This document shows positions 16,113-46,000 of a stretch of DNA of 64,000 bases, piece after piece. Numbering within the stretch: the stretch's first letter is position 1; every line of letters starts with the position of its first letter. The DNA is from Siphonodentalium dalli (Eukaryota > Mollusca > Scaphopoda > Gadilida > Siphonodentaliidae). The position numbers were made by a program, and so were the translations under genes. A model generated the notes under the pieces. It was not told where the DNA came from. It was given only the letters and a program-made list of their open reading frames with translations, and ran no database searches. The stretch is from assembly GCA_032622095.1 (NCBI GenBank), contig CP136061.1, positions 16,740,440 to 16,804,439 on the forward strand. The letters are read 5' to 3'.

Positions 16113-18178
16113 GGTGGCATCAGAGATGCTGTGTCTCGTTTTCGGTGGCTTACCGCCGGTGGCTACCGCCAATTGGTGTGCATCAGTATCGGTAGACTAA
16201 TTAATAGGTAAAATCGAAAAATGACTAATTAAGGGCCATAACTCCATCAAATTTTATCGGGCCAGGCTGGTTTTCGAACTCGTCCAGGATATTATTGGAA
16301 GACACTTATATACCAAATTTTAGTTGAATCGGATGACGTTTGTTGAAGTTATCGCGCTAACGAGCTCAAAATTCGTACAAAATGACTACTTAAGGACCAT
16401 AACTCTATCAAATTTTATCGGACCGGGCCCGTTTTCTAACTCGTCCGAGGTATTCTTGGGAGACACCTATATATCAAAATTTCAATCAAATAGGATGATG
16501 TTTGTTAAATTATCGCGCTAACGAGCTGAAAATTTGTGAAAAAATGACTAATTAAGGGCCATAACTCTATCAAATTTTATCGGACCTGGCCGGTTTTCGA
16601 ACTCGACCGAGATATTCTTGGGAGACACCTATATACCAAATTTCAATTAAATCGGATAACGTTTGTTGAAGTTATCGCGCTAACGAGCTGAAAATTCGTG
16701 AAAAATGACTAATTAAGGGCCATAACTCTATAAAATTTTATCGGACCAGGCCGGTTTTCGAACTCATTCGAGATATTCTTGGGAGACACCTATATACCAA
16801 ATTTAAATCAAATCGGATAACGTTTGTTGAAGTTATCGCGCTAACGAGCTGAAAATTCGTGAAAAATGACTAATTAAGGGCCATAACTCTATCAAATTTT
16901 ATCGGACCAGGCCGGTTTTCAAACTCGTCCGAGATATTCTTGGGAGACACATATATACCAAATTTAAATCAAATCGGATAACGTTTGTTGAAGTTATCGC
17001 GCTAACGAGCTGAAAATTCCTGAAAAATGACTAATTAAGGGCCATAACTCTATCAAATTTTATCGGACCAGGCCGGTTTTCGAACTCATCCTAGATATTC
17101 TTGGGAGACACCTATATACCAAATTTCAATCAAATCGGATAACGTTTGTTGAAGTTATCGCGCTAACGAGCTGAAAATTCGTGAAAAATGACTAATTAAG
17201 GGCCATAACTCTATCAAATTTTATCGGACCAGGCCGGTTTTCGAACTCGTCCGAGATATTCTTGGGAGACACCTATATACCAAATTTAAATCAAATCGGA
17301 TAACGTTTGTTGAAGTTATCGCGCTAACGAGCTGAAAATTCCTGAAAAATGACTAATTAAGGGCCATAACTCTATCAAATTTTATCGGACCAGGCCGGTT
17401 TTCGAACTCATCCTAGATATTCTTGGGAGACACCTATATACCAAATTTCAATCAAATCGGATAACGTTTGTTGAAGTTATCGCGCTAACGAGCTGAAAAT
17501 TCGTGAAAAATGACTAATTAAGGGCCATAACTCTATCAAATTTTATCGGACCAGGCCGGTTTTCGAACTCGTCCGAGATATTCTTGGGAGACACCTATAT
17601 ACCAAATTTAAATCAAATCGGATAACGTTTGTTGAAGTTATCGCGCTAACGAGCTGAAAATTCGTGAAAAATGACTAATTAAGGGCCATAACTCTATCAA
17701 ATTTTATCGGACCAGGCCGGTTTTCGAACTCATCCTAGATATTCTTGGGAGACACCTATATACCAAATTTCAATCAAATCGGATAACGTTTGTTGAAGTT
17801 ATCGCGCTAACGAGCTGAAAATTCGTGAAAAATGACTAATTAAGGGCCATAACTCTATCAAATTTTATCGGACCAGGCCGGTTTTCGAACTCGTCCGAGA
17901 TATTCTTGGGAGACACCTATATCCCAAATTTCAATCGAATCAGATAACGTTTGTTGAAGTTGTCGCGCTAACGAGCCTAAAATCAGTGAAAAATGGCAAA
18001 GGGCCATAACTCTGTAATAAATGTGCGGAGGAACCCGATTTTTTGTCTGCATCTTACGTGCATGGATATGTACTCACACCCCAATAAACGGTTGAGTTAT
18101 AAGCAAAACACGCCGTCCGCCGCCCGCCCCTCATCAAACTATAAGTCGAGTTTTGAAAAAAAACTCAACTAAAAAATC
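16113..18178. repeat. Mobile satellite element, about 11 units of 161 bp
   Basis: The leader starts 'acaagaggtggcatcagaga' and carries 'ggtggctaccgcc'. About eleven near-identical 161-bp units follow. Each contains 'gggccataactctatcaaat', 'tttatcggaccaggccgg', 'tattcttgggagacacctat' and 'gttatcgcgctaacgagc'. The array ends in a 3' module with 'tgcatggatatgtactcaca' and 'aagtcgagtttt'. The same leader and 3' module flank only three units at 38231-39057, so the whole is a dispersed element with variable internal copy number. Confidence 0.9.
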
Positions 18179-20935: not shown

Positions 20936-21098
20936 GTGCCAGTGCATTCTCTTATATATGCGAGTCTCCCATTGGAAGCCTTGCATATATAAGAGAATGC
21001 ACTAGCTTACAATGTCAAGGTAAATATTATATTCTCTTATATATATAAGGCTCCCTATGGGAGACTCGCATATATAAGAGAATGCATTGGCACAGGGT
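20936..21098. mobile_element. Pair of family-A hairpins
   Basis: Two adjacent palindromes (20936-21006 and 21028-21098) with arms 'cattctcttatatatgcgag' or its variant and loops 'tctcccat…'. The flanks ('ggtgcagcattaaagat', and 'ttaaccctttcat' at 21118) match the ends of the TTAA-flanked element at 32031-32298. This is a degraded member of that family. Confidence 0.75.
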
Positions 21099-21209: not shown

Positions 21210-21958
21210 GAGTAACTCCTTTCTTATTTCTAACTGACTCTTAATATCCTATCCGTCACTTCCGTACAGTCCTCGGGTATCACATTAATCACCGGACTTC
21301 CAGCCGCCCCGCCGCTGCTCATCCCGGAGGTCATGAGTTTAGTAACTCCTTTCTAACTGACTCCTCAGTTAATATGCTATCCGATACTTCCGTACAGTCC
21401 TCGGGTATCACATTCATCACCGGACTTCCAGCTGCCCCGTCGCTGCTCATCCGGGAGGTCATGAGTTTAGTAATTCCTTTCTAACTGACTCCTCAGTTAA
21501 TATGCTATCCGATACTTCCATACAGTCCTCGGGTATCACATTAATCACCGGACTTCCAGCCGCCCCGTCGCTGCTCATCCGGGAGGTCATGAGTTTAGTA
21601 ACTCTTTTCTAACTGACTCCTCAGTTAATATGCTATCCGATACTTCCGTACAGTCTTCGGGTATCACATTCATCACCGGACTTCCAGCCGCCCCGTCGCT
21701 GCTCATCCGGGAGGTCATGAGTTCAGTAACTCCTTTCTAACTGACACCTCAGTTAATATGCTGTCCAATACTTCAGTACAGTCCTCAAGAATCACATTTA
21801 TCACCGGTCTTCCTGCCGCCACGTCGCTGCTCATCCGGGAGGTAACGAGTTCAGTAACTCCTTTCTAACTGACTCCTCCGTTAATATGCTGTCCAATACT
21901 GCCGTACAGTCCTCGGGTATCACATTTATCACCGGACTTCCAGTCGCCCCGTCGCTGC
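21210..21958 (-). repeat. 128-bp array derived from the last ZNF277 coding exon
   Basis: About six head-to-tail copies of a 128-bp unit. The landmark 'cagttaatatgc' or its variant falls at 21366, 21494, 21622, 21750 and 21878, exactly 128 bp apart. Read on the minus strand, the rightmost copy is the coding sequence of visible exon 11 (GSPVINVIPEDC … TEESVRKELLNS). The other copies lie beyond the stop. Because 128 is not a multiple of 3, the copies are out of frame with each other. Copies differ by scattered substitutions, so this is not an assembly stutter. Confidence 0.95.
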
Positions 21959-22029
21959 TTGTTTCCTCATCGGGACTATCCTCTAACTGACACAACAGAT
22001 TATCATTCTCGTATGTTGGGAAGAAATAC
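21831..22029 (-). CDS. ZNF277: ZNF277 visible exon 11 (last coding exon)
   Basis: The acceptor 'atattcag' precedes GTATTTCTTCCC. The exon encodes YFFPTYENDNLLCQLEDS, an acidic serine-rich stretch, and a tail ending NSLPPG then TGA. The leading G completes the split codon CA+G left by exon 10. The final residues and the stop come from the first boundary of the 128-bp array, so the C-terminus has probably been reshaped by the duplication. No clear polyadenylation signal was found nearby. Confidence 0.93.
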
Positions 22030-25000
22030 CTGAATATTAAAACATAATAAACTTAAATGTATTCCCCCATTCGGTTATAGAAGTATACATTGGAATGGTC
22101 TATTATTCAAATGTAGGGGTGTTCTGGAAAAACCAGACGGCAGACATATGAAAAGATAATACAAGCAGAAAGCTTCCTATTGATTGGATGGAAATGTTCA
22201 GATAATAAGTTCAACAAATGACATATGGTACATTTGCTTAACTTATTATCTGAATAAGTGGTGACTTATCAGGATTTAGTCGAAAATATGGCTTGTTGCC
22301 ATTCATTGGAATGAATGGCATTCCGATGAATGGCAACAAGCCATATTTCCGACTAAATCCTGAAAAGATACCCATAATTCTGCTGTGGTTAAGGAGTGGA
22401 TTATTTAGGGCATTACTGTACTTGTAAATGAGTATTCAGTATACAAAGGGTTAAGATGTATATAGTAATGAAAGTGTCAATGACACTGTAGCTCAACTTA
22501 GGTAGGGGAATAATTTAAAGGTACTCAATCCGAAAAGAGGGTCCCCATCTCAACAGATTCCAACAACAACAATCCGATCAGAGGGTCCTATATTACTATT
22601 TCTTTGGCTTTGGGGGTAAAAAATATTTGATTCGAGGAACCCATCAAATAAAGCTCAGAGTTATTAGATATTGATTTTTGAAATTCGTTAATTGCTCGAG
22701 ATGGGTACTAATTACTGCCGTCAATTTGGTAACCTGCTCGAGATTTTACGCCAAAACTCTATTCAAACAGACAAGGATGCATAACTCTATAGTCAAGTGG
22801 TAAAATCTGGACTGTCTTCTGGGCCAGAAAGAATTCCCGATAATGAAAAATAATAGATTTCTAAAATCGATATCTAACAAATCTGAGCTTTGATGGGTGA
22901 CTTCCTTGACTCGATTCAAATATTTTTGACCCCCGAAGCCATTGAAATAGTAATTGAGAGGAGTTTTATCGGATTGAGTACCTTCAATGGTTGACAGTAA
23001 ATGGAGGAATAGGTAAGGTGCTAATTGAAATGTCTAACCTGCGCCAAAGGATTTAGTGGTGCAAAGAGTAAAATACAAGATGGCTGCTGGCGGCCATGTT
23101 TTTTGGCCATTTGACCCCAAAAAGACTCGATCCCATCTACGTGTCATTGTTAACATCCATGACAAATTTTATGAAGATCTGACCAAAGCTACGACCTACA
23201 AATTTCATGATGATCAGACGAACAGTAAGACCTGTGGATATCGCGCCAATGGATTCAATTTTGAAATCCAAGATGGCCACTGGCAGCCATGTTTTTTTGC
23301 CGAATGACCCCAAAATGACTCGTTCCCATCTACATGTCAATGTCAACATTCATGACAAATTTCATAAAGATCAGACCAAAGGTACGACCTGTAGCCCGCG
23401 CCAAAGGATTTAGTCATGCAAAGAGTAAAATCCAAGAATGGCTGCTGGCGGCCATGTTTTTCGGCCGAATGACCCCAAAATCACTCGTTTCCATCTACAT
23501 GTCATTGTTAACAACCATGACAAATTTCATAATGTTCCGATCAAAGCTACGACCTGTAGCCCGCGCCAAAGTATTTATTCATGCAAAGAGTAAAATCCAA
23601 GATGGCTGCTGGCGCCCATGTTTTTTGGCCGAACGACCACAAAATGACTCGTTCCCATCTACATGTCAATATTAACATCCATGACAAATTTCATGATGAT
23701 CAGACAAACAGTACGACCTATAGCCCGCGCCAATGGATTGAATTTTGAAATCCAAGATGGCTGCCAGCGGAATGACCCCAAAATGACTCATTCCCATCTA
23801 CATGTCAATGTCAACATTCATGACAAATTTCATAAAGATTAGACCAAGGTACAACCTGTAGACCGCGCCAAAGGATTTAGTCATGCAAAGAGTAAAATCC
23901 AAGATGGCTGCTGGTGGCCATGTTTTTCGGCCGAACAACCCCAAAATGACTCGTTCCCATCTACATGTCATTGTTAACATCCATGACAAATTTAATGATG
24001 TTGCGATCAAAGCTACGACCTGTAGCCTGCGCCAAAGGATTTAATCATGCAAAGAGTAAAATCCAAGATGGCTGCTGGCGGCCATGTTTTTTGGCCGAAC
24101 GACCCCCAAAATGACTCGTTCCCATCTACATGTCAATATTAACATCCATGACAAATTTCATGATGATCAGACGAACAGTACGACCTGTAGCCCGTGCCAA
24201 TGGATTGAATTTTGATATCCAAGTAGGCCGCCAGCGGCCATGTTTTTTGGCTGAATGACCCCACAATGATTCGTTCCCATCTACATGTCAATGTCAACAT
24301 CCATGACAAATTTCATAAACTTCTGACCAACGCAACGACCTGTAGCCCGCGCCAAAGGATTTAGTCATGCAAAGAGTAAAATCCAAGATGGCTGCTGGCA
24401 GCCATGTTTTTCGGACGAACGACCCCAAAATCACTCGTTTCCCATCTACATGTCATAATTAACATCATTGAGAAATTTCATGATGATCAGACGAACAGTA
24501 CGACCTGTAGCCCGCGCCATAGGTTGAATCTTGAAATCCAAGATGGCTGCCAGCGGCCATGTTTTTTGGCCGAATGACCCAAAATGACTCGTTCCCATCT
24601 ACATGTCAATGTCAACATTCATGACAAATTTCATAAAGATCAGACCAAAGGTACGACCTGTAGCCCGCGCCAAAGGAAATTGTTGACGGACACACGGACG
24701 ACGGACGCCAAATCATGGCAATAGCTCAAACTTACAAAAGTAAGTTGTGCTAAAAACCAGTAAAATTCAGTATTGTACATCATTATAAACCAATGGTACC
24801 ATACAGCTTAGGAGGTGGGAAGTGACCATCTATACCATGCAGCCAAAATACGGGGTGGGAAGTACATGAAATCAGATTTTGGATTATGACATTTTTATGG
24901 GATTAAAGGAACAGAAATATTCAAAGACAACCTATAATAGCTGAATTGTGGTTGTTTCTGACCTGGCAGGGTCCAGCAAAACATTCTATTCTGTTCAAAC

Positions 25001-28000
25001 TGAATATTGAACCGAAAACACATTAATGTTCGAAAATAAAATAAAATATAGAATCAAACTTAGTGAGACCGGACAAACATAAAATTGTATAATTAAGGGT
25101 AGTTTCAACCCGGAATGTTTGGTTTTATTGGGAAAATAGTGACTTCTTGCAACCGAAATTAAAAAAAATATATATCAATAAAATATAGCCTCATTCTTGT
25201 TTGTCAACATGTAGTTTTAGATGTGTGAAGTTACTCCTTGACCCTTGACCATACGGCAAAGTATGATGCTATATGGTACAAAGACTGACAACGTGTAACC
25301 GATTGAGGAATAATGTACTCAGAAAACAATTTCCATGTCACGGAACTCCAAACAACTTTATTTTTAGATAAAATGTTGTTTTGTATTTAGTGCCGAGTTA
25401 ATGATTATTGCATGCATATGTGACCCGCCATATCAAATCCAGTCATAAGTCAGGATTTTTTTACCCTGTGCCAATGCATTCTCTTATATATACGAGTCGA
25501 CCATAGGTCGCCTCGTATATATAAGAGAATGAATTAGCCTAACAATTTTTTACAATTTTAATAATTTTTTCTTGTAGTCTTTAAAATTTTATAATTTCAC
25601 CCTTACAGAGCCCCAGCCGTAAAAGTAGACATGTGGTTGTGAATTGAAAACTGAGTTCATGCTTCTCAGATTGTATGAATTATACATTAATCAAGTTCGT
25701 TTGAAGCATGTAACTTTGGCTGCATGGTTCATTTCTGGAATTGTTCTGATGCGTATTGTGTACTTTAAAATTAAGGTGTTTGTTCATGTTTGAGGAAATT
25801 ATTTCACAATTCCTGTGTACTCTTTACTTGCAATTGTTTTATGATTCTGAGAATGTATTCAAAATATTAATTGCGAATGTTACAACAGCTGGCCGTCACC
25901 ATTGAACCAAAATAGTAGAACTGAATTCGAATTGAATATTGGGACCAAATCGAAAAATGAATCAATCATCGAATATCCACAGGACCCTAAGACCTGGTTA
26001 CTGTAACTCACTGAGGTTGGTCCCAAATGGATGGCTCTGGTATTTTGTTTGTGTGAGATGTCTCATCCATATGTTGTAACAACTCTTCCTTTGTCGGAAA
26101 TTTATCTTGACAACTGAAGCATGCTAAAGAATGAATCTGAAAATGAAGAAAGAAAATGCCATAGAAACAAGAGTGTCAATGACTGTGTGTTAATTGAAAG
26201 ACTATACATACTTCCAAGAAGATGAGGTCTAAACAGAATGAGGTCCCCAGAGGGTGATTTTGGTGAAGCAGAGAATATAGAAACCAACAATAACTTTTTA
26301 GTACAATACCAATTAACCCTTTGTTTACAAAATATTCATTGACGAGTAGTTACCTTCAGATAATCAGTTTAACAAATGGCCTTAACCCTTTGAGTGCCAG
26401 GGCCCGATCTTATCGGCCCTAAACCTACACAATAAGTCTGTTAAAGAATATAATAAAATATATTAAAATTGTAAAATCGCATATATAAGAGAATGCATTG
26501 GCACAGGGTATATCAGTTGATACAAAAATCGGACCTGGCACTCAAAGGGTTAAAACGGCTGAAGGTAATTTGTAATAGTGGACTAGCTTGAATAACTGGT
26601 ATGATTTGATACTGAGCCTCATTTTGACATCAATGAGAACGTACCTGTCTGCGTATATAGTTGACTAGCTTGACTTGTTGGTAGAAGTTGAGACTCAGCC
26701 TCATTTTGATTTCGCTGAGATCGAAGTCGTGTAGCTCTTGCATGTGAAGGCTCAATCGCTCAGCTTTGCTTGATGAAAATGGACAAAACAGGCAGTGTGC
26801 CTGAGATCCAGCCTCCTCAACCCAACCTTCCCAGTCACTGTAAAGAGAAATAACTTTATATAGAATATACTCAACCTTCCCAGTCACTGAAAAGGGAAAT
26901 AAGTCTATTTAGAATATATTCAACCCTCCCAGTCACTGTAAAGAGAAATAACTCTATTTAGAATATACTCAACCCTCCCAATCACTGAAAAGGGAAATAA
27001 CTCTATTTAGAATATACTCAACCTTCCCAGTCAATGTAAGGAAAATAACCCTATTTAGCATACTCAACTCTCCCAGTAAAGGAAAAGGGAAATAACTCTA
27101 TTTAGAATATACTCAACCCTCTCAGTCACTGTAAAAGGAAATAACACTATTTAGAATATATTCATCCCTCCCAGTCACTGTAAAAGGAAATAGCACTATT
27201 TAGAATATACTCAAACCTCCAAGTCACTGAAAAGGGAAATAACTCTATTTAGAATATTTATAACTCTATTTAGAATACACTCAACCCTCCCAGTCACTAT
27301 AAAGGGAAATAACTCTATTTAGAACATACTCAACCCTCCCAGCAAAGGAAAATAACTCTCATGAGAATAGAATATTTTCAACCCTCCCAGTCACCCTCTC
27401 CCCTCCCTAGCAACCCTCTCCCCTCCCAGTCACACTCTCCCCTCCCTAGCGACTCATGATTTCTCCACTCCCAGTCACCCTCTCCCCTCCTTAGCCATCA
27501 TGATTTCTCCCCTCCCAGTCACCATCTCCCCTCCCTAGCGACTCATGATTTCTCCCCTCCCCATCACCCTCTCCCCTCCCTAGCGACTCATGATTTCTCC
27601 CCTCCCCGTCACCCTCTCCCCTCCTTAGCCATCATGATTTCTCCCCTCCCAGTCACCATCTCCCCTCCCTAGCGACTCATGATTTCTTGTTGTCTGTCTG
27701 AATGAGATTCTGACCTCCTGGTGACAAACTGGTATAAGATTTATATTTTTTAGATATTAAAAGTTATAACGACTATCGACTTGCTCCTTTTTGTCGTCCG
27801 TCTGGTATAAGATTTAGTTTTTTATCAATGTACTCTTTTTCATTGTCTAGTCTGGTATAAGATATATATTTTTTATCGACTTACTCTTTCTTGTTGTTCG
27901 TCTGGTATAAGATATATATTTTTTATTGACATACTCTTTTTCATTGTCTGTCTGGTATAAGATATATATTTTTTATCGACTTACTCTTTCTTGTTGTTCG

Positions 28001-31000
28001 TCTGGTATAAGATATATATTTTTTATCAACTTACTCTTTTTCGTTGTCTGCCTGGTATAAGATATATATTTTTTATTGACTTACTCTTTTTCATCGTCCG
28101 TCTGATCATCAAACAGTGGATCCTTCTGTTTGTGGATCACCTCCCAATTCTTACCGATCTCCTGGAATACAAAACCAGACTCTCTATATCTCAAGTTAAC
28201 CCTTTACCCAACAGAACGGCCCTGTGCCAATGCATTCTCTTATATATGCGAGTCGACCATAGGTCGCCTCGCATATATAAGAGAATGCATTGGATTAACA
28301 CATATTGAAAATGATAAAATTATCAAAGAATGTAGAAAAATATTGTCAAAATTGTTAAAAAATGTAAGAAAAAATTATAAAATTGTTAAAGAATGTAAGA
28401 AAAAATGGTAAAAAGTGTTAAAAAAAGAATTTTTTTAGGCCAATGCATTCTCTTATATATGCAAGGCGACCTATGGTCGACTCGCATATATAAGAGAATG
28501 CATTGGCACAGGGCATAACTGTAACCATCACAATGTCGTCAATGAACCGGTTCCAATGATATCCATATTTGTATGGTGTTATTGAGACAGACAGAAGATA
28601 TTTTAGGCTGTTGAATCTTTATTTGGGCGTTTTTGGCCGTTTTGTTGGGTAAAGGGTTAATCAGTATTCCATCGAAAAAGCCAAACACAACCGAACATAA
28701 CCAAACACAAGGCATATGTAGTTATCTTTCGACTAGTCTCTTGTGAAGTTTTGTGCAGTTTGGGTCACTAATAAGATATATAATAAACATTTTATATAAC
28801 GCATTTATCTTCAGCATCAAAAATCCAAACACAAGTGGGGGTAGTATATACCCTTATAAAAAACACTCTGGTAAAAGCCAGATAAACCATAGTTTATATG
28901 GGTAAAAGCCATGTAAAGTATGTACAAATGACATATCCTTGTAAAGTCCATGTAAAGGCATTGTATGGCTGCGGTCACCCCAAAGATCCATATGAAGATT
29001 GGTGATGATTGGATGAGAGAGGTGGCCTAAAGTGTGTGCTGAAGGATTTAGTCATACAAAGAGTAAAATTCAAGATGGTCGCTGATAGCCATATTTTTCA
29101 AAGAAATTCTGAATAATTTGATGGCTCCCATCTAGAGGTGATCCTAAACATGCCTGTAAATTTTCAAACAATTCTCAAATAAATGTGGGCTGCAGGATGT
29201 GCTGATAGATCAAATAGGGTGTGCTAACGGAAATTGTTGACTGATGGACGCACGCACGCACAGATGATGGATGCCAATCCAACACAATAGCTCAGTGCAG
29301 TCATAATGACAGGTACAAGCAAAAATTCGCTGGTCATTTGGGCTTTTCACCCGGTCATTGACCATGACCGAATGCTTATATCCAGTCTTGCTGCTCTCTT
29401 CACATATTATCTATCATAGTTCCTGTTCTTTGGGCTGATTTTCTTACTTACCAGGTAATTAATCACATAATATCTATCATAGTTCCTGTTCTTTGGGCTG
29501 ATTTTCTTACTTACCAGGTAATTAATCACATAATATCTATCATAGTTCCTTTTCTTTGGGCTGATTTTCTCACTTACCAGGTAATTAATCACATAATATC
29601 TATCATAGTTCCTGTTCTTTGGGCTGATTTTCCGATGTTGTTTCTTTCTCATATGCTCTCGTAACACTGTTCTGTCTTTGAATGTTTTCTCACAGTATAG
29701 ACACTGTAAGCTGGAAAGAAAAAGGAGAAAACAAGCATATATAAAAGAGTGATGAAGGGATGGATAAACATTGCATCCCATATTACCCACAATTAATACA
29801 TAGCCAAATTATGTTAATTTGTGGCCACCTATTTTTTTTTTAATTATAAGTTGAACGAGAGGCCGATCGCGATCAGCAGATGTTTAAACCATCCCTCGCC
29901 GATAGCATATAGCTATGATCGGAATCATAATCTAGAGTTTTTATTTTGGATTATAGAGTATATTGTTATGTACTACTAAAGTATAAGAGACAAATGAACA
30001 TAATAATACAAATTTTCAAATTATTTGAATTTATGGGTCAAAAGAGAAAGGTTAATATAACATCTGAACTGAAGAGCCTGCCCTGTAACTTGAAAAAGAT
30101 TACCACAGTTCATACAAAAGACATTAAGTAGCCCTCAATAAAATGTTTTCATACATTACAATGTTTTACAAGTATCTTGGAAGCTAAAATCCTTAACATT
30201 CAATTTTAATCTTCTAAGTGCTCTGCAGCCGCTAAAATTCAATCAACAATGACAATATGAACAGATTTGAAACTATGGCAATAATCCACACTAACTATTA
30301 ACAATATCTGCCTTTTTGGACTGGAGAAAATGATTTTTTAAGTACTTATTTTATTTCGAGTTATCTGACCCTTTTGTTGTCTCCTGTCTAGGACCCGTTG
30401 AAGCCCCTGACATGATAAGCTGAAGTCAGCCCTTTCCAAATGCTCTATAGTACTGAATCAATATTTTTCATACATAGAAAGGCATTGATTCTGTTCTTGA
30501 GATAAAATCCATGAAAACCCCATAGCCCTCAAAGTTAATCTTCTGACCCCTCAGTGGACCAAAAAGTCACTCAACCATGAACAAATAATGAGCTAGGTCT
30601 TCTAGCAATTGTCCATACCAAGTATTAATGAAATCCGCCCATTGGGACTGCACAATAATAAGAAGTATTTAAAATAGTGCTATCTGGTCCTAACCCGACC
30701 CAACCCTTTTGTTGCCTGTCGTCAAATAATTCTAAAGCCCCTTTAAAACAAGATTTAAAATGAGCAATCTAGCCCCAAGGATAATACAGGTACATATATC
30801 TTATTCTTGCCAATAACATTATGTGCTCCACAGACACGAATGGTCAGTATGAGTAATTTTATAACTATAATGTGCCAGTGGTTTCTGACATCATTCATGT
30901 GGTAAGTATATTGAGACAAGGTTGGACACAAATTTGTGTAATTTAGAAGGTGCCCTAGACTTTTGAAACTGTGGCTCCAGATGCTGGACCAGTATTATAG

Positions 31001-34000
31001 CACCCAATATTTGTCATCTGCATTTAAAATAGATTTTGTTGAATGTTGAACGGAGAAAGTTTTTTTAACATCGATGTTGGAAGCCAGAAACAATAGTGCT
31101 ATCTGATCCTAACCCTTTTGTTGCCTGTCGTCAAATAATCCTAAAGCCCCTTTAAAACAAGATTTAAAATGAGCAATAATGAGAATGCTGGCAGAATATC
31201 ACATTTGCTTTAACTGACTAATACTCATTGATAATTCATGAATAAAGCTACTGAATCTGTTTGATCATACTCTGAAAACAACCCAACAAATTAACAATGG
31301 ACTATTCCAATTTATATTTTTAGAACTTAATGGGAGAGTCCATTCAGTCATGAATGGGCTACAGATTATAATTCATGTTGGGCTAACATGATAGCTATAA
31401 ATCTCAGTTTCAATAAATCATATAGGAATGCAGGTGATAATGTTCTCACAATGGGAAGCCTGTACTATTATCGAGTTATCAGAGCATTGGTGAATTCTAG
31501 GTAAAAAAGGACCATATCTTGATCTGCATTTTGGACAGAGGAACCCACATACCAAATATGGTTCTGATCAGATAAAAAATGTTTGAGTTATCACAGCATG
31601 CATGAACCCATATTCAAACTTGATCTGTATTTTGGGCTGATAAGCTCATATACCAAATTCAGTTCGAATCAAATATAAAATGTTTGAGATATTGCACCAT
31701 GCGTAAAAGTGTCTACAGACAGACTGACAGACAGACGGTCAGACAGACAGACATATCAATGGATGGACGAATGACAAGTGGACAATCCGGACATCGACAA
31801 TAAGTGTACCAAATAAAAAAAACTTATACTTAAATCTTACTTGTCTAACTTCTCTTTCAATTTATCCAGAAATTCATCTATGAAGACTGAAACAAGAAAC
31901 CGAGATGAAAATAAATGTAGACATCAGATCACATATAAGATATTAATTTAATTTTCAGACAATAGTTGTTTTATGCTGGCAAGGAAATAATCAAAGGCAA
32001 ATATACAACAAGAGCACTGCGAGGCATGGCTTAACCCTTTCATGATGGGAGCTGCATTGGTGCGGCATTAAAGACCCTGTGCCAGTGCATTCTCTTATAT
32101 ATGCGAGTCTCCCATAGGGAGCCTCGCATATATAAGAGAACGCACTGGCTTACAAGATCGAGGTCAATATTGTTAGGCAATGTATTCTCTTATATATGCG
32201 AAGCACCCTATGGGCTACTTGCATATATATATATAAGAGAATGCACTGGCACATGGTTTTCAAAAAAATTCAGGAAGCTTCAAACATGAAAGGGTTAAAG
32301 ACATGTTATGTACTTGTTCGGGTGCGTACAACTGATAAGTTAGTATTCAAGCACTATGCCAACTGGAGGAATGTAACATTCTACTAACATCGCCGAAAAT
32401 CTTAAGCTAAACTACCCCTACCACTCCATAGAAAACATTGTCTGAACTACGCTCAATTGTAAATATTTACTACTCGATTCGGGACGCATCTATATCTGCG
32501 ATAAACTAACGAAAACCATTTCCCCATCGAGAGTCACTGCAATTAATTAATATATAAGAATGACGGTGCGTGTTATCAATTTGGATATAAATTTGTAAAA
32601 ATTACTACTTTGAACAAGATTATTCTCTATTTCTATTCGATCACCCTGTTGGAGTGTTTCACATCACTTTAATATGCCCGTTTGCAAAGTAAATTGCTGT
32701 CATCTTTCAAAGAAAATTGCCTAAACTAACATACAATATATGAGTCCAATAGAATAACGCAAAATATCATCTGGAAAGCAAGAATATGCAAATATATAAG
32801 TCGAAAAGCACCACAACTCCAGAAAAAATCATCGAACCAACCCAAGTTCGAACTCGACCTGTATTTTGGTATGACTGAGCCACATACCAAGTTTAGTTGT
32901 GACCAAATAATCCAAACTCAAATTATCATCCAGAAACCAAAATGTTGACGTAAAAATTTAATTTTCCAAGTCAAAAAATGCCCATAACTCTGGCAAAAAA
33001 CATTATGTTCACAGACAAACGGACAGATGGACGGACTGATTAAATAATACGGACCGTTTTTCAAACGAGCGTATAAAAACTGCACATGTGCTGCACATGT
33101 CGATGATGATGGTGTGATTTTTGTTCAAAATACATGTACTGACCACTAATTAATATGGACTGAATTCCCTTGTCCAGGGGAACACTGCACATGTAAAAGA
33201 TGATGGTGTGATTTGACTCATTTTTCATGTCATCAAGGAGTACCCCTTTAATACATGTTTCTTAATAATGTATTTCACATTAGGTGGAGGACCAGCTCGA
33301 GATTGCATGATTTATATGCTTTTGTGAGCCACTTTTTCCTTTCAGTGCTGACAATAACAGAAATTTCCCCGCGGTAATCAATTAATGTTTATAATGAAAT
33401 CAGTGTCACATAAATCATGTAATCACGAGCTGGGACCTTCACCTACTGTGAAATGCATAATTAATGCAATGCTTTTTAAAGGGATGGGCAGCCTTCGTTG
33501 TAGGTTATAATATAGAAATAACATTTTTAAATTATGATAATTTACTCAAGAATATACTAATAGTGTAGCATAATGATACGATTGTCCAAGAAAATACACA
33601 GGTCGACTGTTATTTAGTTTCTCGCAAAAAGCACAGTAGATTGTTTATAAGCAGAATCATGATATTGCGCCATTTCAATATTTAGATTAGCGCGCTTTAT
33701 ATGGTGGTTGTAAAATCTCTAATGCGGTGCACCTGCAACTTACAACTCACAATACCACTCATAGTAATAATCCTTAATTGGTATGTGACCATATATAGGT
33801 TAGGAGAAAATACTAACTGGATTAAAAAATATTCATTACTTTGCAAGAACAATTATATTACCGGTATGTACACATTTTCTGTCTGATCATTTCACAATCA
33901 TGAAGTAACGTGGATTAGCTTGATTTGAACTGACAGCGGGTTGAATGGGTTCAATTAAAATAAAAATTGGTGTGATTTGAATGCGATTGTTGATTGCGGC

Positions 34001-37000
34001 AATAATTTTATCTACGCATTCCACAGTGGGATATTTTCATTGGACGATATGGTAGTTCTAAGTGTTTCTCTATAAACAATCGTAACATAATGTTTTTTTT
34101 ATGTTTGTTTACATAACCATGGGTACAAACGTGACAATAACATGTGATGCACACGATATTTTAGATTTAATATTCTTTCTGTTTATGGTGGTTTTAGCAG
34201 ATGTGACTACGTTAAAATCTATACCCACAGGGAAGGCCGCCCGTATCTAGGGGTGCCACGATTAATCGTATAATCGATGAACCGTTAATAAAGACAATAA
34301 TCGATTACCATTTCCATCATCGACTAATCTGCGTTATTTATTTCGGACGTTGGAAGATGCTGGTTATTGTTGAAACATGTACCCTGATTGTTTTAAACAG
34401 TCTAAATTACAACTGAGGGGTTAACAACATTTGATCATGTATCAAAGAGATTCCGACAACTTGAGTACTACTGGTATATGTTGCAAACAGCCAGCAGTTC
34501 ATTTAATGACATGGTTACTCTTCGGGTCATTGTATATTCTTCAAATTGCATGGCGGTACTGCAGCTTTGAACTTATGCCGACATCGTTGTATATTTCTAC
34601 AAGAAAGGCGGCAAGTGCTATGTCTTTGAAATGGGCTGACTGTCAGTGAACTGATGCACTAGCCCTTAAATCTCACTGGACCAAAGGGGAGTTAATTGAC
34701 ATTCTCTCGAAATCAGGGAACATACAGTATTTTAATCAGCGATATTCTCTGTGGTGTCACTTGCAGCAATTATACTTTGTTTGTATTCAAGTACACTTAG
34801 ATGTTATTAGTACAGGCTGTCACTTATAGTGTGGTGACTGCTAAATGAAATTGACTATTACCAAATAATTAACTTGTTCCGAGTCCTGAAAATTGCGGGC
34901 GGGTGCCTACCATTGTAATTGTTATCCATGCTCTGGAAGTTTGCAGAAACTTAATAGTTTCCATAACATTAGATTCCTTTTTTCTTAGAAACCACCATCG
35001 GTCCGTCGTGCATTCCTACTTTTATATTGCTGGTTTGTCTGGCTATTAAATTAATCGCTACGCTCGTTCCAATGAACTCACAAATATAACCATAACATCG
35101 CCGAAAACTGTGCTTGTATTGAATACATTGTGCTCATTAGTCATTACCGGTGGTTTATGATGCACTTTATTAACACCAAAATTACACCAGTCGATGCCTC
35201 AAACAATCAGCGATAGCAGTTAACCAGCACCCAGCCAATATGGCAATAGGACATATTACGGAATACTTCCACTGATGTTATTAATATTAAGTATGATTAA
35301 TCGATAAAAGTCGATTATTGACGACCGATTATCGATTATCAAAATCAATAATCGTGGCACCTCTACCCGTATCTTTAACTACAATATTACCTGCAATATT
35401 TTGTCAATGTTATGAAGTTCCACGTCTCATCATCAAAAAGTTCAAGGTTTTGTAAAAGTAGAACATGACCAGAGTAGAGATTCTCCAATATTATTTATTA
35501 TCATTATTTGATTTAATATTAGAACTTTTGTTTGGCTTTAAAAGACTGACCTCAAAAACTTCAGTATACAACAACCTAAGGTTATCTGCATGACCAATGT
35601 TGAAACTGTGTTCTATCATGTGATACTAACCCAGGTTATCTGTATGACCGATGTTGAAACAGTGTTCTATCATGTTATACTAACCTAGGTTATCTGCATG
35701 ACCAATGTTGAAACTGTGTTCTTCTATCATGTGGCTCAGCATCGGTAATCTACAAACATAAATGAAGTATAAGCAGTGGAAATAAAATTTGTCAAAATAT
35801 TGATTATAATGATCACCATTATCACTACCATTGGCATGATATGTGATGAATTTGGTCCTTGTGAATACAACGGTTTTTTGATCGAATGGAATACCTCTCT
35901 TAAGTTTGTAAATTAATAGAATATCGAATTGAGGTATTTCATATTCTTCGTCGTGGAAATTATAAGATCCATAAATGTTTCACGTTTTCATCATTATGTC
36001 TCAATTAACTATCAAAAAACAAACGTTGTCACTGTTTTGTGAAGAGTACATCGACAATTAAAGACATAGTTTCTTCAAAATATTTAGAAAAATACCATTT
36101 CATCAATTTCCGTGCCGGTAAATTAAAACTTCCGGATTTGAATGTCACTAAAGGGAAATTCCTCTTTATATCGATTCAAAATGTGGAATTGAAGATTGAC
36201 CATTGCAGAATTACGCTATCACGGCTTTCTCAAAACTTTAATTAAACAGGCATTTGTTCAACGGAATTTGCCCTACGCCTTCGAGAACAGCCCATGTATA
36301 GGTAGGCATTACAAATGTCACTACAAATCAAAACTGAGCAAACATTATCAAATATTGAAAAAATAAAACATCTAATTGCGTGCAAGTGCAGTCATGTGAC
36401 ATAGCATACAGTTCAACAGAATTGTGAAGTATCTTTTCATGAATAAATTATAAACTGTTATATTTGCCAATCACAAAACAAAAGGGTTGAAACCATTAAA
36501 GTTAACTAAACACGTTCATTGCCGACTATGAGTTATCTCATATGTGTAAAAACGGCATGTTTACGAGTAATAATTATGAGTGTATGTACAGTAATGCTCT
36601 AAGTAATCAACTTCTTAACCACAGCAGAATTATAGGTAACTTTTCAGGATTTAGTCGGAGATATGGCTTGTTGCCATTCATCGGAAAGCTCTTGATTACT
36701 TAGAGCACTACTGTACTTTTAATATTTCGCAGTAGTTGTGAATTTTCAAATCTTAACAACAACTGCACCATGTTCATGTTGATTGTTTTGAAGTATTCGA
36801 AATTACTATTCCGAGTTGAATCAAATTTGAATCGAATATAGAGGTCGAATCGAATAAAAAAAACAAATATCTAATATTGTGTCTGAAATTTGCAGAATGA
36901 GGTCCCCAGAGGGTAAATTTAGTGATGCTATCCAGCATAGCGGGCTAGCATCACTAAATTCACCCTCTGGGAATCTCAATCTGCTCAGGCCTCAACTGCT

Positions 37001-40000
37001 ATATGTTGATTGATAGATTTGGGGTTTAATGTCGCTTTCAGCAACTAAGATTTAAGCTCCAGAGTTGAAGTTGGTGATGTTCATCCATTAGTCACATCGA
37101 TTATTTTATCTTCTGCAAATTAGTGGAAATAGAAATTTATCAGAAGGAAAAAGTAACTAAAATTACTATAGATACTTCCCAGAAGATGAGGCCAAAGCAG
37201 ATTGAGGTCACCAATAGGTGAATTATTGATGCTAGCCCACTATGTAGGGTAGCATCACTAAATTCACCCTCTGAGAACCTCAGTCTGCAAATGCACGATG
37301 AGCTCATGAGAGGACACACATACAAATTTCATATAAACAAATGCTCAAAAGATGTGAGGCTCCACTATTTTACCCATATGGAACAGACTACATGTACCAC
37401 AGTTTGTCGTGGAGGCAGAAGATGTCAGTGATTTTAAAAAGCTACTAGATACCCAACTTTTGTATCTGTGCTATGACTATGATAAGCAATCAAAATGATA
37501 AATATATATGTCTTTCAAAGCTAGACGAAAGTCCGAGCGACTTACGTCCAAGAAATATATGATATGATAATTGGGGAAATTTTACCAGCCAAATCTAAAA
37601 TTACAACAATATAGTAATTACATGCCTTGTTCCAGGAGTCAAAATCAGTTGATGCATGAAATGCTTACTTACCCATTTTTTATATGCCTGACTTGGACAT
37701 GATTTGAAAATAGCATTGTGTTACTAGTATAAATATTCTCCATTTTCTGCTTTCACTCTGGTGATTAATAAATAGAGAATCTAACCTGCTATGCTTGAAC
37801 TGTTCTTGACAGAAGAGACACATTTTACAAAATGAGGAATCCTCTCTTTCCTTGTGTTGAACTTCAAGTATTCTCTCCTGAAAGTCAAAATAAAACTACA
37901 ACTGCATATAAAATGAGTAAAATATGTGTCAATGACACTGTAGATCAACTTGGATGGGGATATTTTCATGGGTTAGTCAATTGAGTGATTAGGAATGCGG
38001 AAAATTGAAATGTCTAAGTAATACTAGATATCAACATGAAAAGATATATATAATGTAAAATCCAAGATAACCCACCCCCCCCCCCCCCGGCAGCCATGTT
38101 TTCTCCCATGAAATTCAATAAACTGCAGATAAAACTGGGACTAGAGGTCACCCCAAAGATTGATATGGTGATGATCGAATGAGGTACATTATGTAGGTGG
38201 CCTGTAGGGTGTGCTGAAGGATTTAGTCATACAAAAAGTAACAAGAGGTGGCATCAGAGATGCTGTGTGTCGTTTTCGGTGGCTTACCGCCGGTGGCTAC
38301 CACCGGTGGCTACCGCCAATTGGTGTGCATCAGTATCGGTAGACTAATTAATAGGTAAAATCGAAAAATGACTAATTAAGGGACATAACTCTATCAAATT
38401 TTATCGGGCCAGGCTGGTTTTCGAACTCGTCCGAAATATTCTTGGCAAGTACGTCTATTCCAAATTTTAAACAAATCGGAGGACGTTTGTTGAAGTTATC
38501 GTGCTAAAGAGCTAAAAATTCACGAAAAATGACTAATTAAGGGCCATAACTCTATAAAATTTTATCGGACCAGGCCGGTTTTCGAACTCGTCCGAGATAT
38601 TCTTGGGAGACACCTATATACCAAATTTCAATCAAATCGGATAACGTTTGTTGAAGTTATCGCGCTAACGAGCTGAAAATTCGTGAAAAATGACTAATTA
38701 AGGGCCATAACTCTATCAAATTTTATCGGACCAGGCCGGTTTTCGAACTCGTCCGAGATATTCTTGGGAGACACCTATATCCTAAATTTCAATCGAATCA
38801 GATAACATTTATTGAAGTTGTTGCGCTAACGAGCCTAAAATCAGTGAAAAATGGCAAAGGGCCATAACTCTGTAATAAATGTGCGGACGAACCCGATTTT
38901 TTGTCTGCAGCTTACGTGCATGGATATGTACTCACACACAAATTTTTTTTTTAATCCGTCAAACGTTTGATGTTATAAGCAAAACAGGCCGCCCACCCGC
39001 CCGTCCGCCGTCCCCCATCAAACTATAAGTCGAGTTTTGGAAAAAAACTCGACTAAAAATGCAAGATGGCTGCCAGTTAGAGTTTAATATATGCCCGGGA
39101 ATGAAAAAAACAGGAACCGGGAATGAAACCCCTTCAGAACCGGGAACCGGGAACGTTCCGGGGAAATATATGGCTTGTATGCACACGTTGTACAACATGG
39201 GTTATTCTCAATTTGTCTACAGTTTGGGCGACAGGGATCACAATAATAATTTAGATTAACTAATGGATATTCCAAATTGTTATATTTGACCATCTTGAGC
39301 CACATAATGGTATACAACGTAACATTACACAAATTGGAAAACAAAACCATCGTTCAGACATCCCAAACTTCAAACGAATTGTTGCCGACGTGAACTTCTC
39401 GTGGCATCTCGTAACCTGTCTGTGTACTTTAACTTAAGAGAATACAAAATAAACAATCTATATATAGTTCGATGAAATTTGTGTGTTAATTTCCAATACT
39501 TTTTATATTATCGGGAGTCGGATGTAGTCTTGCAAAATACAATTGCCTCAGATTACTGACGCAACATCGCCGCAATTAATAATTTGATACACGTTGTAAA
39601 AGTCTTGTTTCCACACGAACGGTTCATGCCACTACGTTGTGACTCGTGAGCTCGTGTCGTGAAGTCCTGGCTGTTCATGGGCCACGAGACCAAACCTTAA
39701 GTCCTTATGACTCCTTAACCATTAGACGATAGCATGGTCAATTCTAATCACACTTTATGTAGGATTTTGCAGATATATAACATATATACTGCATTGTGCG
39801 CTGTGCATGGACAAATAAAATGAAAATATGCGCTGTTGGTGTCCCATTATATATGATATACCAAGTGTTAACAATTCACCTCATTCCCGGTTCCTACAGA
39901 TCATATTCCCGGGAAACGGGAATGAGTATGGGACCCGGGAACCGGGAAATTCCCGTTCCCGGGATTAAACCCTACTGCCAGTGGCCATGTTTTTCATCCA

Positions 40001-43000
40001 TAATTGTTCAAATTTGATAGCTCCCATCTAGATGTGATCCTAAAAATCCTAATAATCTGACTTGGCACTGAAAGGGTTAAAGAAATTGTTAAAGGAAATT
40101 TTGTGATAACAGACTCACAGGTTGGCACTTTATCTATTGATGAAGGCAACTTTATTTACAGATGTGGGTCATCCGGGATAAGCTCTTACCAATGTTTTCT
40201 TTTGCAAAAATTCTCTGAGCTGGTTATCTTCAGGAAGAACATCACAAAGTAAGTAGTACTGATCTTTTGGACCTGCAACATTAAAGTTAGTGCTCAATTG
40301 TTAGAGGTCACAGGTACGGGTCTGCGATGCATCGAATCGAAATTAATTTTCTATTCATCCCTCTGAATCGAATCGTTTTCGATTTTGAGTACCAGTTTTT
40401 CGATTCGATTATCTCAAAGAATCTTAAGTACACTGCGCGTTTCTAGTATATAGCGTGCCTAGATCGATCATTTTACCAATAATCCGAAGAATTTAGAAAA
40501 TCAAATTCTCAAAAAATCCTGTGATACATTTGAATAAACTACGATGCAAAATGCATGGACCATCCTCAACAATTTGGTGCACGTCAGGGAACATCGTCTC
40601 AGAATAGCGATAACGCAACGCGAAATCCGCTATATAAAATGGCGGAAGATAAAAATTAAGTATAAATGGATCTGTTTTTTTCATTTGCGGTGTACTAGTA
40701 AATACGCGACATGGTGGAAATACAATATTTTCCAAAATAATTAAAATATATATCTCCTAGAAGTATCTTGCCCACTGAACTACATGTATATGGTATATAT
40801 CCCAAGGTAGGAGGGGTTAACTCTCTGAGTTGAAACGAGAGGCCGATCACGATCGGCAGATGTTTAACCCATACCTTGGCGATAGCGATTAGCTATTTTT
40901 ATAAATTTTATAAATCCTTACATCAACCTTTTCATGAGTGCTAAAGTTTCAACAATTCACACTTAATATAGTGATCATGTGAAAAATATTTAGTTATCAC
41001 ATTGTGTCAACAGGATTGGCGGAGGATGTTAATATTTTTAAGCAAATAAACCAAATGACCCTCACTATGCAGGTTAGGGGTGTGTTCTTGTCAACTATGC
41101 CAAGAACTACATGTATAAACATAATCAATGGAAATATTTGAGTTATCAAATCGGATAGAATAGGGTTAATCTTACCCAAACTAATGAACTGATAAACACA
41201 AAATAGTCTATACAAAGCATGTCATTGGATTTAGAAACCCATACAATAAGTCAGTCTCAAGAATACCAGCACCATTAATATTACCCTGGAGCCCAAATGC
41301 AATTGAGGGAATTTCAAAATAAGACATTTCCTCTAATGATGAATATATAATTGGTGATTTATTGAAACCCTTACTGAACCTGGATCAAAGTGAAATGGAT
41401 AATATTATATCTGTCTATCGCATAATATGTGTCTATGGAATGGTTTCATTTTAATCCCAAATCCATGCAAATCAAAAGTGGATCACCATCAACCTGGACA
41501 TAATATAGGAGAATGATCAAATGAAAAGCATCAAAACCATATGATGTGTGGAGAGGGTTAATCATTTGCAATGACATCATATCATGGAACTGAGGAATGT
41601 GTGGATAAATTTTTGTCTAAGATAAGACAACAGTGTATGTAGACAACAATGTCTGTAAAACATCCCTACAAAGTAACAATGGACTATTCCAATTTAATAT
41701 TTTAGAATAGGTGTCCTATAGTGTGTACATAAACTTTAGTAATGAACCTGTTTCAGCAAAGGGGTTAACTTAATATTGCACAGAAAACAGAACTCCACCA
41801 GATAGCCATCAATCAATTTGACATTAATATGATAACAAATCCTGCCAGCCAACAGTACCACTATCAGGCTTTATAGCATGTCCATAGTGATAATTAACTC
41901 ATTTCAATAACACACATGGTCTGCGAGATATGTTCTCTTAAAATTCCCAGCAGTAATTACTTGAATTATAAAGGGTCATAACTCTGTTAAAATATATCGG
42001 ATCAAACCCATATTCGAACTCGATCTGTATTTAGGGGTGATAAATTCATATACCAAATTTGGTGCTGATCAGATGAAAAATGTTTTGAGTCATAGCAGCT
42101 TGGGTGAATTCTAAGTAAACATAAGAGTGAAAAGGGTTAATTAAACAATACCAAAAACCATACAGACGAAGAACATGCTAAGAAAAACCTAGGTAAGAAA
42201 TATGAGGCAGATCAGAAGAAATATGTTCAACTTATTACATTGGATAGCATGTGTGTAAAGGGTTAATTATTTTCTAAACCGATCAACCAATCAATACCAA
42301 AAACTATACAGATGAGGGGCATGTCATCATAAACCTACATATCAAATATGAAAACAATCGGACAAAATATACTTCGGTTTTAGCATCGGATTTTTGTTTT
42401 TTTAATTTTATTTTTGAAAAAGGGTCATAACTCCTTTAAAATAAATCGGATCAAACCCATATTCGAACTCGATCTGTATTTTGGGCTCTGAAACTCGCAT
42501 ACCAAATTTGGTTCCGATCAGATAAAAATTGTTCGAGTTATGACAGCATGCGTGAATTCGAGGTCGAAAAAGGGCCATAACTCCGTAAATAAAATTTGGA
42601 TCAAACCCATATTTGAACTCGATCTATATTTTGGTCTGAGAAACTCATATACAAAATTTGGTTCCGATCGGATAGAACATTTTTGAGTTATCGCACCATA
42701 CGTAAAGTGTCTACGGACAGACAGACAGACAGACGGCTCGACGCACGACGGACATATCTTCTGTCATGTTCATGACCTTGTAATCACGTGATCTCTATCA
42801 CGTAGCTAAGTAATCGCCATATTTTTATCCCCAGTAGGACATTCCTCATGAACGGAGTGGGTGCGAAACCCTGGGAGGGAGCTCAGAGTTCAGTGGGCAA
42901 GATACTTCTAGGAGATATATATTTTACTTATTTTGGAAAATATTGTATCTCCTTCAAAGGTATCTTCCCACTGAACTATATGGTAAAAAATAGAATTTTC

Positions 43001-46000
43001 TAGCAGGTGGAGGCCACGAGGAAACATAAACACCGCTATGCACCTGAACCAAAGAACTGGATTGACCTGATAACCTACAATATATATATATATATGCACA
43101 ATATGACCATAAGCCAATGTAATATTACCCCATAAGACTAATACCTGTCAGAAGGCTCAAACGAAACAAAAAGTGGCCACTTGGGAGTTGAAAAACCTGC
43201 AAATAAAGTAGATAGCTTCAGAAAGACATGGAGATGGAGACGACATTCCCTTCGGAGCTTATAGCTAATAATATATCCCCCCCCCCCCCCCCCGAAAGGG
43301 GAGAAACATCTATTTTCTAAGGGAATGGAAATAGAAAAATACCCATTGACAAGAAATCCCCGGCCGAGTAGATAAACAAAGGGATGGCCGAATACTGAAT
43401 AACGCCCCTAACGGGCTAACCCAAGGTATAAAGGAGACCCCCCCTTAAAAACAATAGAACCAATCCCAGAACCAAATCGTGAGTGGGGTGGGCCGAGTCC
43501 CAGTACGAGATGAGAGCCCGATGAAAAAACAGCTGCAAGCTCAAAAAAGCGCCCGACACCAATTAATCTGTGACAAGCCATTGTCTATAAGGATGAGGTA
43601 TCATTGATCAATACTCTGACCGGGAAGCGAATGGGTATTATACGGACATACTATGCAAAGCTCAGGCCATATGACTAACTGGGCTCAGCATTGGAGTCTC
43701 ACAGAAGAAAACTTAGTTTGAAGCCTGGAGTTCGAGATATAAATGACTAAGATGCCATAAGCCATTGCATTTGCCCCTGATGACATTCCAAATGTGGAAA
43801 CGCCGACCAACACAGTTAAACCCAACTGACAAATCACAGGCTACTGTATCCATGATAGAAAGGCAGCCAGGAACCGAAATTCCAATGTCATGAAGGTGGA
43901 AAACACACAAGAAACAAAAATTGTGCTAAATACATGTATGCATCAGGATGGTGGCACAAGCCCAAAACCAGCGGAAACCGATGGCAGGTAGGTAGCTAAA
44001 AGCAGACCAAGACGCACCGCGCCCCCAACTGTTCTTGCTCTTCTGACTGGCCCCTGACGAGTTGATGGTGCAAGGTATCCCGTCTGGGATGGATGGGGTG
44101 CCCCTCCGATTGTACCCTGTTCCGGAGACAACCATCACCCGAAGTGCGAATCTAGAGGGCGGATCATATGATCTGCATCCTACACCCAATGGTAGTGAAT
44201 ATCTCGCACGAGGGGAAGCAGCTGGCAAGAATCTTCTTCAGTCTGTCTGAAGTGTGCACAACGTGAGTCATATGCTGCCCCTTAGACGCAACATTATCCT
44301 GCAGTGGTAATCCCCGATGTCAGCAAAAGACCTGGCTTTGTATATTAAATGAGACCACTATGCGAATCAAGCACTATCAAGAAAAAACAAAACCAATGTG
44401 TACCAACAACAGAGCCCATAAGACGAATGACGTATTAGAACCAAAGGCCGATCTCACAGAAGCCTTTTCTTTCTTCTTTTCCTCGCTAACACGCCATGTT
44501 GCCCATTAAGCCCGAGCGGGGTGGCTGAATTAGACCTCATGTCAACTGCGTTCTGAAATGGAACATATGTCTAACTATGGATAATGGACTCATCTATGTA
44601 TTACTTATTTCAAAAGTGAATTCCATTTTTAGTTAGAACTGAAAGCAACCTGCAGATAAAAGATATGCAAGTGCACCCACCTAAAATATAAAACCATATT
44701 TAGAAGATAAACCCTATATATGGTTATTTGGCAACCATAGCTGTAGGTGATTTCCTTATTAAAGTGAGATGAAACACTCCGGTAGGATGATCAAACAGAA
44801 ACGGAGAATAATCTGACTCAGTAAATCCAAAGTTCCAACACACACGCTGTCATTCTCATCTATTAATGAAACACAGTGACGGTCGGAGATAAAGCTTGTT
44901 TATATGCTTGTTTATCTCCGATTCTTGCGTCCCAAATCGAGATGTAAATATTTACCATTTCTCGCACCCGAACCAGTCCAGAACATGTCTTAAAAGTCAG
45001 GAAAATTAAAGGGCGCGAGTCATATAATAATCGAGTGATATGAATGACCCACCCTCCAAAGTATACTCCTGAAGACTATAGACACTCTTCCAGCAATGAC
45101 CGTGACCTCGCAAGAGCTGGATGGAACATTGAAAGAAGCAACAACTTATAAAGCAAGAAGTTGAACACTTCCCCAATCCGAGAACAATAAAATATTTTAA
45201 TACCTCTCAGGATGGTCGATCCCATGTCGCCGAGTTTGCAGTCCGATGGTATAACCACTCAGCTCTTGACGACGCTTGTGCAGGGAACAAATTGACTGGC
45301 ATCTCAGGGCAATTTGCTACCAAAACCCATGCAACTTGGATCTTATTTCTTCATTTCTCTGTACCTGGGTACGCCAACGGTCGTCCCGATTATACGAATT
45401 GGAGTCCCGTTCGATAGTCCAGGAAGCCCACCAAATGCGGCCAATGGGTTCGATGGGTAGCCCCAACCCGTGACCTGTTTGGTGGGACTATCGCCCCGAG
45501 TGCTAATTACGCCAATGAAGGGAACACTATATATCGACAAGTGTCAGTGTCCTGGTCTCAAAGGTTTCTGTCTCTTCTCTTAGGACCCTCGAAAAGAGGG
45601 GAAGCACTCTGATGTTCTTTTAAATTGTATATGATTTTAGAATAATGCTATCAAATCATGTCAATCTGAGGTTATTTGCTAATCAAAATTTTGACATTAA
45701 TTTCCTCCCTCGTGAGCGCATGTAAAGGTGACCCGAAAGGAATGTCTAAAGCCATTTCACCTCGGGCTGGAGCTACTGCTCGACCTGATCCCGATCTCCA
45801 TCCGTCCGAACTGGCGATGGGGTGTTAAAAGCTCAAGACACAACGACAAGCTTCCTTTCTAATTTCATGTGAGGTCTGGTCATTGTGGACCCCTGAGGAA
45901 TGTCCAGAGCCTGTACATCTCGGGGATGGAGCAGCAGCTCGTACGGATCCCGATATCCAACCGACCGAACTGGCGATGGGAGGTTAGTGGGTACCAGTTC

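Follow-up and report, generated by a model that had tools for sequence, protein, structure and literature searches.

Minisatellite-like duplications of intron–exon boundaries, 5′ as well as 3′, have been described in amphioxus under the name "mirages" (PMC3087553). They are described there from Adh3 and the globin genes BflGb6 and BflGb9, with units of 10–72 bp in Adh3 and 150–160 bp in the globins, splice signals in many of the copies, and a gene that stays readable; copies inside a cluster undergo concerted evolution from which the cluster boundaries are excluded, and splicing is apparently undisturbed (PMC3087553). A second report adds PGBD5 and troponin C (PMC3902484). Two further systems are related: variable internal tandem repeats of human segmental duplications, about half of them in coding sequence and some at exon–intron boundaries (PMC2812944), and the gain of an intron by tandem duplication across a boundary in a potato RdRp gene (PMC4974935).

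Here, arrays of this kind are described in the ZNF277 gene of the mollusc Siphonodentalium dalli. The window, i.e. the whole stretch of 64,000 nucleotides analyzed (C1:16740440-16804439), was taken from a genome of 2,226,750,531 bases in 9 contigs. As in those mirages, the units span a boundary, either type of boundary is affected, many copies carry splice signals, and the gene is readable; the inner copies of mirages are homogenized, and divergent or truncated ends in the arrays of ZNF277 exons 7, 8, and 11 are similar (PMC3087553). The present case differs in that the host is a mollusc, that five splice-edge arrays occur in one gene together with eight independent cases in three other families, and that it is known from the DNA of one assembly. 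Minisatellite expansion in the human repeats likewise alters gene structure, in some cases at exon–intron boundaries, but those repeats all lie in segmental duplications, whereas in the mollusc it is mainly the introns of a single conserved gene that hold the copies (PMC2812944). In potato RdRp a boundary-crossing duplication also copies splice signals, but there an intron was gained, whereas in ZNF277 existing introns were enlarged (PMC4974935). The initial annotation of the locus had proposed an undescribed mode of exon-edge satellite birth, a suggestion that is anticipated by the amphioxus mirages (PMC3087553, PMC3902484). The arrays add a mollusc to the few genes of amphioxus in which mirages have been described; literature searches on bivalves, oysters, and molluscs, made with narrow term combinations and with most subscription journals outside their scope, returned no such case.

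Identification of ZNF277 and inventory of its tandem arrays

The gene lies on the minus strand. Alignment to ten homologues and stitching of the frame resolved it into 11 coding exons, with 20 splice edges, GT donors and AG acceptors, and an unbroken frame of 443 amino acids. With the stitched sequence as query, 565 proteins were matched at E 0.001 or better. The best 120 of these are headed by molluscs, mostly bivalves where named, many carry the name zinc finger protein 277, and the top match has E 5.2e-131 at 59% identity; among the matches listed, identity was as high as 63%, with a partial protein from Pinctada. In a tree of 24 rows the gene groups with the mollusc rows (92/90), and its placement within the molluscs is without resolution.

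Five arrays, with periods of 54, 63, 50, 49, and 128 bp, had been annotated at exons 5, 7, 8, 9, and 11, three of them at donors, one at an acceptor, and one running past the stop codon. All five were recovered by TRF at those places and periods, and exon mapping with homologues gave the same exon numbers and edge types (Table 1). The description of all five as exon-edge arrays holds for exons 5, 7, 8, and 9; the exon-11 array runs from coding into untranslated sequence, spanning the stop codon and no splice edge. A sixth array, absent from the initial annotation, spans the exon-2 donor, with CCG/GTAAGT (slash at the junction) recurring as CCG/GTAAGC. Its copies are 73% identical and matched at 24 of 40 bases in a scan around each ZNF277 edge, versus a maximum of 23 at array-free edges; it is the weakest case, resting on TRF and the repeated donor. 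Further hidden copies were not found by this 40-base scan around the ZNF277 edges, the array-free edges giving 23/40 or less. Boundary-spanning units were therefore counted at 5 of the 20 splice edges, namely the donors of exons 2, 5, 7, and 8 and the acceptor of exon 9.

Table 1. Mapped features of ZNF277 (positions in the window) and array-bearing edges of the comparison sample
Feature	Position	Strand	Description	Basis
ZNF277 coding span	21831..59874	-	11 coding exons, 443 aa, intact	
Exon-2 donor duplication	56332..56390	-	31 bp, 1.9 copies; exon 2 at 56459-56368	TRF, 86% matches
Exon-5 donor array	35579..35722	-	54 bp, 2.7 copies; exon 5 at 35749-35685	TRF, exon mapping
Exon-7 donor array	29400..29632	-	63 bp, 3.7 copies; exon 7 at 29710-29578	TRF, exon mapping
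Exon-8 donor array	27774..28104	-	50 bp, 6.6 copies; exon 8 at 28161-28085	TRF, exon mapping
Intron 8	26838..28084	-	1,247 bp; 83% in TRF arrays	TRF, 11-mer repeats
Intron-8 array	27382..27687	-	45 bp, 6.8 copies; two 9-mers in common with exon-9 acceptor unit	TRF, 9-mer comparison
Exon-9 acceptor array	26823..27257	-	49 bp, 8.9 copies; exon 9 at 26837-26645	TRF, exon mapping
Exon-11 array	21241..21959	-	128 bp, 5.6 copies; begins within exon-11 coding sequence and passes the stop (stop ends 21831)	TRF, exon mapping
Sampled donors with arrays			CCT L022, L026, L034; proteasome L074; myosin L082 and paralogue L105	
Sampled acceptors with arrays			proteasome L098, L100; myosin L112	

That the arrays lack a common sequence, as had been claimed, was borne out: in the 15 pairwise comparisons of the six ZNF277 units only two 9-mers were in common, one of them being the donor consensus. 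Unit lengths of boundary arrays vary from 28 to 128 bp, sequence comparison between units being confined to those of ZNF277. The 63-bp exon-7 array, the only ZNF277 unit searched against the whole genome, has one match there.

Most of intron 8 is array sequence: one array straddles the exon-8 donor, another the exon-9 acceptor, and the 45-bp array lies between them. Internally repeated 11-mers make up 86% of this intron, versus 1–38% of the other nine ZNF277 introns. The shared 9-mers point to a probable origin of the 45-bp array from the exon-9 acceptor unit.

Copy-by-copy comparison and proposed turnover of the arrays

The copies within each array were compared with the statement that the inner copy stays intact while the outer copies diverge. 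The exon-8 array, in which the most divergent copies are those at the far end, agrees with it; exons 9 and 11 do not, and the three complete copies at exon 7 are 97–98% alike. At exon 9 the inner copy (mean 0.819; range 0.812–0.888) is one of the pair that diverges most. At exon 11, copies 2 and 3 and copies 3 and 4 are 96% alike, and differences are larger for the inner two copies and for the outer copy, which is truncated. The exon-11 inner copy ends in LLNSLPPG; the stop codon after LLNS, lost there, is kept in four of the five outer copies, and it coincides with the end point of two relatives aligned at this place. Similar middles with divergent ends fit the copies better than an intact inner copy with diverged outer ones: in some of the longer arrays the middle copies resemble one another more than the end copies do, and the arrays of exons 7, 8, and 11 have divergent or truncated ends. 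The pattern as a whole agrees with the copies at exon 11 and at the far end of the exon-8 array, and weakly with those at exon 9, exons 2, 5, and 7 having too few copies in this one assembly. The arrays had also been said to grow away from the coding sequence. Their position outside it carries no weight as evidence, because an array that spans a boundary without spoiling the exon could lie nowhere else.

The ZNF277 arrays are probably mirage-type minisatellites that arose by ordinary local tandem duplication and chanced on exon–intron joins. Where short local tandem duplications abound in a genome, some of the copied stretches would straddle such a join by chance. The complete splice site adjoining the exon body would stay functional, and the surplus copies, landing in the intron or past the stop codon, would be tolerated. 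Unequal exchange may then alter copy number and homogenize the middle copies, while end copies would drift or be truncated.

A possible exon-edge duplication in Dreissena ZNF277

Repeated 7-mers were detected in three ZNF277 proteins among the best 120 of the 565 matches. Two of these (P0026 and P0043) resemble duplications of whole exons or faulty gene models and were left out of the count; the third, from Dreissena polymorpha (P0017), was retained. According to the protein records, isoform X2 of Dreissena ZNF277 equals isoform X3 plus 36 residues, which are exactly two extra copies of VHLGVCIGNIHLFSPLLQ. The extra 18-residue copies sit where the ZNF277 of the window has its exon-10 acceptor, suggesting that an in-frame 54-bp array spanning that acceptor would yield the X2 insert. 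The two species would be alike in having exon-edge copies, and differ in that the Dreissena copies are at exon 10 and are known at the protein level from database records of isoforms. The Dreissena case would be independent of the arrays in the window because it is at a different exon.

Splice signals and reading frame of the outer copies

The outer copies keep splice signals in many, not all, cases (exons 7, 8, and 9). At exon 7, CTG/GTAAGT occurs as a donor three times in all, and GTAAGT is present in two of the three outer copies; at exon 8, two of six outer copies score below zero as donors; at exon 9, AG/TGA is found in six of eight outer copies. In exons 5 and 8 alike, translation continued beyond the inner donor runs into a stop one codon later; in exon 2, where the 31-base unit also shifts the frame, the stop comes after 11 codons. 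Splicing to any of the six intact outer acceptors of exon 9 would add a stop no more than six codons on. Of the five splice-edge arrays only that of exon 7 is readable in frame across its copies; beyond its inner donor the frame remains open over 56 codons, in steps of 21 amino acids. Regular splicing of ZNF277 is assumed to run through the inner sites.

A benefit from spare splice sites had been put forward as one cause of the arrays, and this received little support, since only the exon-7 array is in frame and the unit lengths, divisible by three in 5 of the 14 arrays, show no bias beyond the chance expectation. By the same count, selection for reading frame found no support. Retention of the arrays for a function, either through alternative exon-7 donors adding 21 amino acids in frame or through unproductive outer-site splicing (with a stop or frame shift at exons 2, 5, 8, and 9) that would brake expression, is very unlikely in our judgment. 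The in-frame exon-7 copies, two of the outer ones with CTG/GTAAGT donors, and the Dreissena isoforms with 0 and 2 extra copies speak for it; the absence of a multiple-of-three bias and the partial decay of outer sites at exons 5, 8, and 9 speak against it, and the Dreissena isoforms are database records.

Boundary-spanning arrays in other genes of the genome

Exons of CCT, proteasome, and myosin genes from the same genome were taken as a comparison sample because ZNF277 had been chosen for its arrays. For CCT, 62 matches were obtained, of which 56 were entered and 51 kept after removal of identical peptides. Of 29 proteasome matches, 27 were used; the two excluded were a duplicate and a match with just one long open frame. 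Of 85 myosin matches, 33 were used, 20 of them spread over genes and 13 added after the first 20 had been analyzed; the later 13 include some close paralogues, and no myosin exon was selected by its flanks. At G000:C4:274219458-275508405, many closely similar myosin exon matches lie within about 1.3 Mb, which looks like a tandem expansion of myosin genes. Edges in the sample are predictions, placed with a simple splice consensus score close to where the family matches end, and those scoring 0 or less were dropped. Some retained edges may be wrong, e.g. one end of L003, an apparently intronless copy. L097, a near-repeat of L068, was retained, neither of these two having an array.

Boundary-spanning arrays were present at 9 of these 202 predicted splice edges, 8 of which count as independent because one array seems common to myosin L082 and its paralogue L105. 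The array sequences were inspected for L022, L026, L034, L074, L082, and the three acceptors, L105 being taken from the scan. At L082 a 67-bp boundary array of two copies is followed by a different array, so the 4.6 copies in the tally include a merged neighbor. Both 5′ and 3′ boundaries are affected, with four donors and one acceptor in ZNF277 and 6/99 donors and 3/103 acceptors in the sample. A donor-only rule, which the first five cases (5 donors, 0 acceptors) had seemed to follow, was dropped when three acceptors appeared among the next 20 exons. The notion that the arrays are a peculiarity of ZNF277 was likewise abandoned, given the eight independent cases in the CCT, proteasome, and myosin genes. 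Two observations concern the flanks of individual exons. The proteasome donor of L074 is followed by a near-perfect 58-bp array of at least 6.9 copies, which continues up to the end of the fetched stretch. L026 and L034 (G000:C2:20441386-20445699) are two exons of one CCT gene with a donor-spanning array each, and the L026 array is followed by another of the same 39-bp period.

Similar arrays in other genes lie on four other contigs (C2, C4, C7, and C9), and this bears on an assembly or haplotype artefact, by which copy numbers would have been inflated or invented. The exon-7 copies, at 97–98% likeness, are of a kind that assemblers miscount. Most copies differ from their neighbors, however, similar arrays recur on those four contigs, and the genome is in 9 long contigs, which makes an artefact highly improbable.

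Frequency of arrays at exon edges compared with chance

Two null models were used. In the seed-placement null, one seed unit per array is placed at random, which suits births that leave the exon intact; the coverage null poses the plain question of coverage. For ZNF277, with 26 arrays and 21 edges including the stop, seed placement gave 0.69 expected against 6 seen, a number reached in 1 of 20,000 trials (P = 5e-5); with the 20 arrays having units of 12–139 bp, 0.33 were expected, and none of 20,000 trials reached the observed number. When the edges were slid over the array map, 17.5% of the gene being array, 3.6 were expected (P = 0.20). The assertion that five edge seeds are unlikely by chance thus stands under seed placement and falls under coverage.

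For the sample, the background came from CCT loci only and comprised 141,908 positions, each 150 bp or more away from matched exons. Array coverage of this background was 6.2%, giving 12.4 expected at 201 edges versus 8 seen, i.e. no excess. Counting terminal units only, the background was 1.9% for units of at least 12 bp (3.9 expected versus 8 seen, P = 0.04) and 0.94% for units of 12–139 bp (1.9 expected versus 8 seen, P = 0.0007). Under these two settings the excess was significant for donors alone (5/98; P = 0.04 and 0.002) and not for acceptors alone (3/103; P = 0.32 and 0.073) or for CCT alone (3/92; P = 0.26 and 0.056). In the sampled loci, arrays that do not hold the edge cover 1.0–3.5% of points 80–240 bp off the edge, versus 4.5% at the edge itself. 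A modest general preference for edges is therefore possible, at 2- to 4-fold over the seed-placement nulls and none over coverage.

Independent arrays holding exon edges are more frequent in ZNF277 (5/20) than in the sample (9/202), in agreement with the initial annotation (Fisher P = 0.004, binomial P = 0.0016, both uncorrected, ZNF277 having been chosen post hoc for its arrays). ZNF277 is an outlier, a tail case among the genes of this genome.

That exon edges favor the birth of duplications, through transcription-linked breaks or fill-in at exon–intron composition steps, or favor their survival, with the selected copy anchoring the array, is an alternative that we regard as rather unlikely. 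In its favor, the sampled edges exceed the terminal-unit background 2- to 4-fold, ZNF277 has arrays at 6 of 21 edges against 0.69 expected, intron 8 has arrays at either end, and Dreissena ZNF277 suggests an independent case at exon 10. On the other side, edge frequency shows no excess over plain coverage, the sample covers three gene families with predicted edges and a background from CCT loci only, and the early all-donor pattern was gone after the next 20 exons. Only tentatively can one go on to the extended form, in which exon–intron edges would be 2- to 4-fold preferred places of minisatellite birth or survival, with about 1 in 25 splice edges affected and with some introns made up mostly of arrays from both ends; ZNF277 would then be an extreme case and a hotspot gene in at least two molluscs.

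Ordinary local duplication that by chance straddled exon–intron joins was preferred on the following counts: unrelated genes are hit, donors and acceptors are both affected, the 8 independent cases stand against 12.4 expected by coverage, there is no frame bias, and the 443-residue frame is intact. Counted against it were the excess under seed placement, both in ZNF277 and in the sample, the lower share of points in arrays at 80–240 bp off the sampled edges than at the edges themselves, and the higher rate in ZNF277 than in the sampled genes. As far as the evidence goes, the ZNF277 arrays are ordinary in mechanism and unusual in their number within one gene, and the preference for edges is only a hint. 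If several per cent of splice edges bear such arrays, they would provide a natural experiment on spliceosome choice among near-identical sites and on intron growth, and preferential seeding of duplications at exon edges would become countable.

Other repeats in and near the locus

A near-identical 161-bp unit is found in arrays at window positions 16216-18013 and 38362-38875, the latter within intron 3 of ZNF277, and thus constitutes a dispersed satellite. Palindromic elements with arms like CTTATATATGCGAGTC are repeated at 20940-21090, 28230-28295, and 32085-32250, both within ZNF277 and behind it. Upstream of the gene, at 61799-63619, lies an open frame of 606 amino acids that, to judge from its sequence, resembles a retrotransposon reverse transcriptase.
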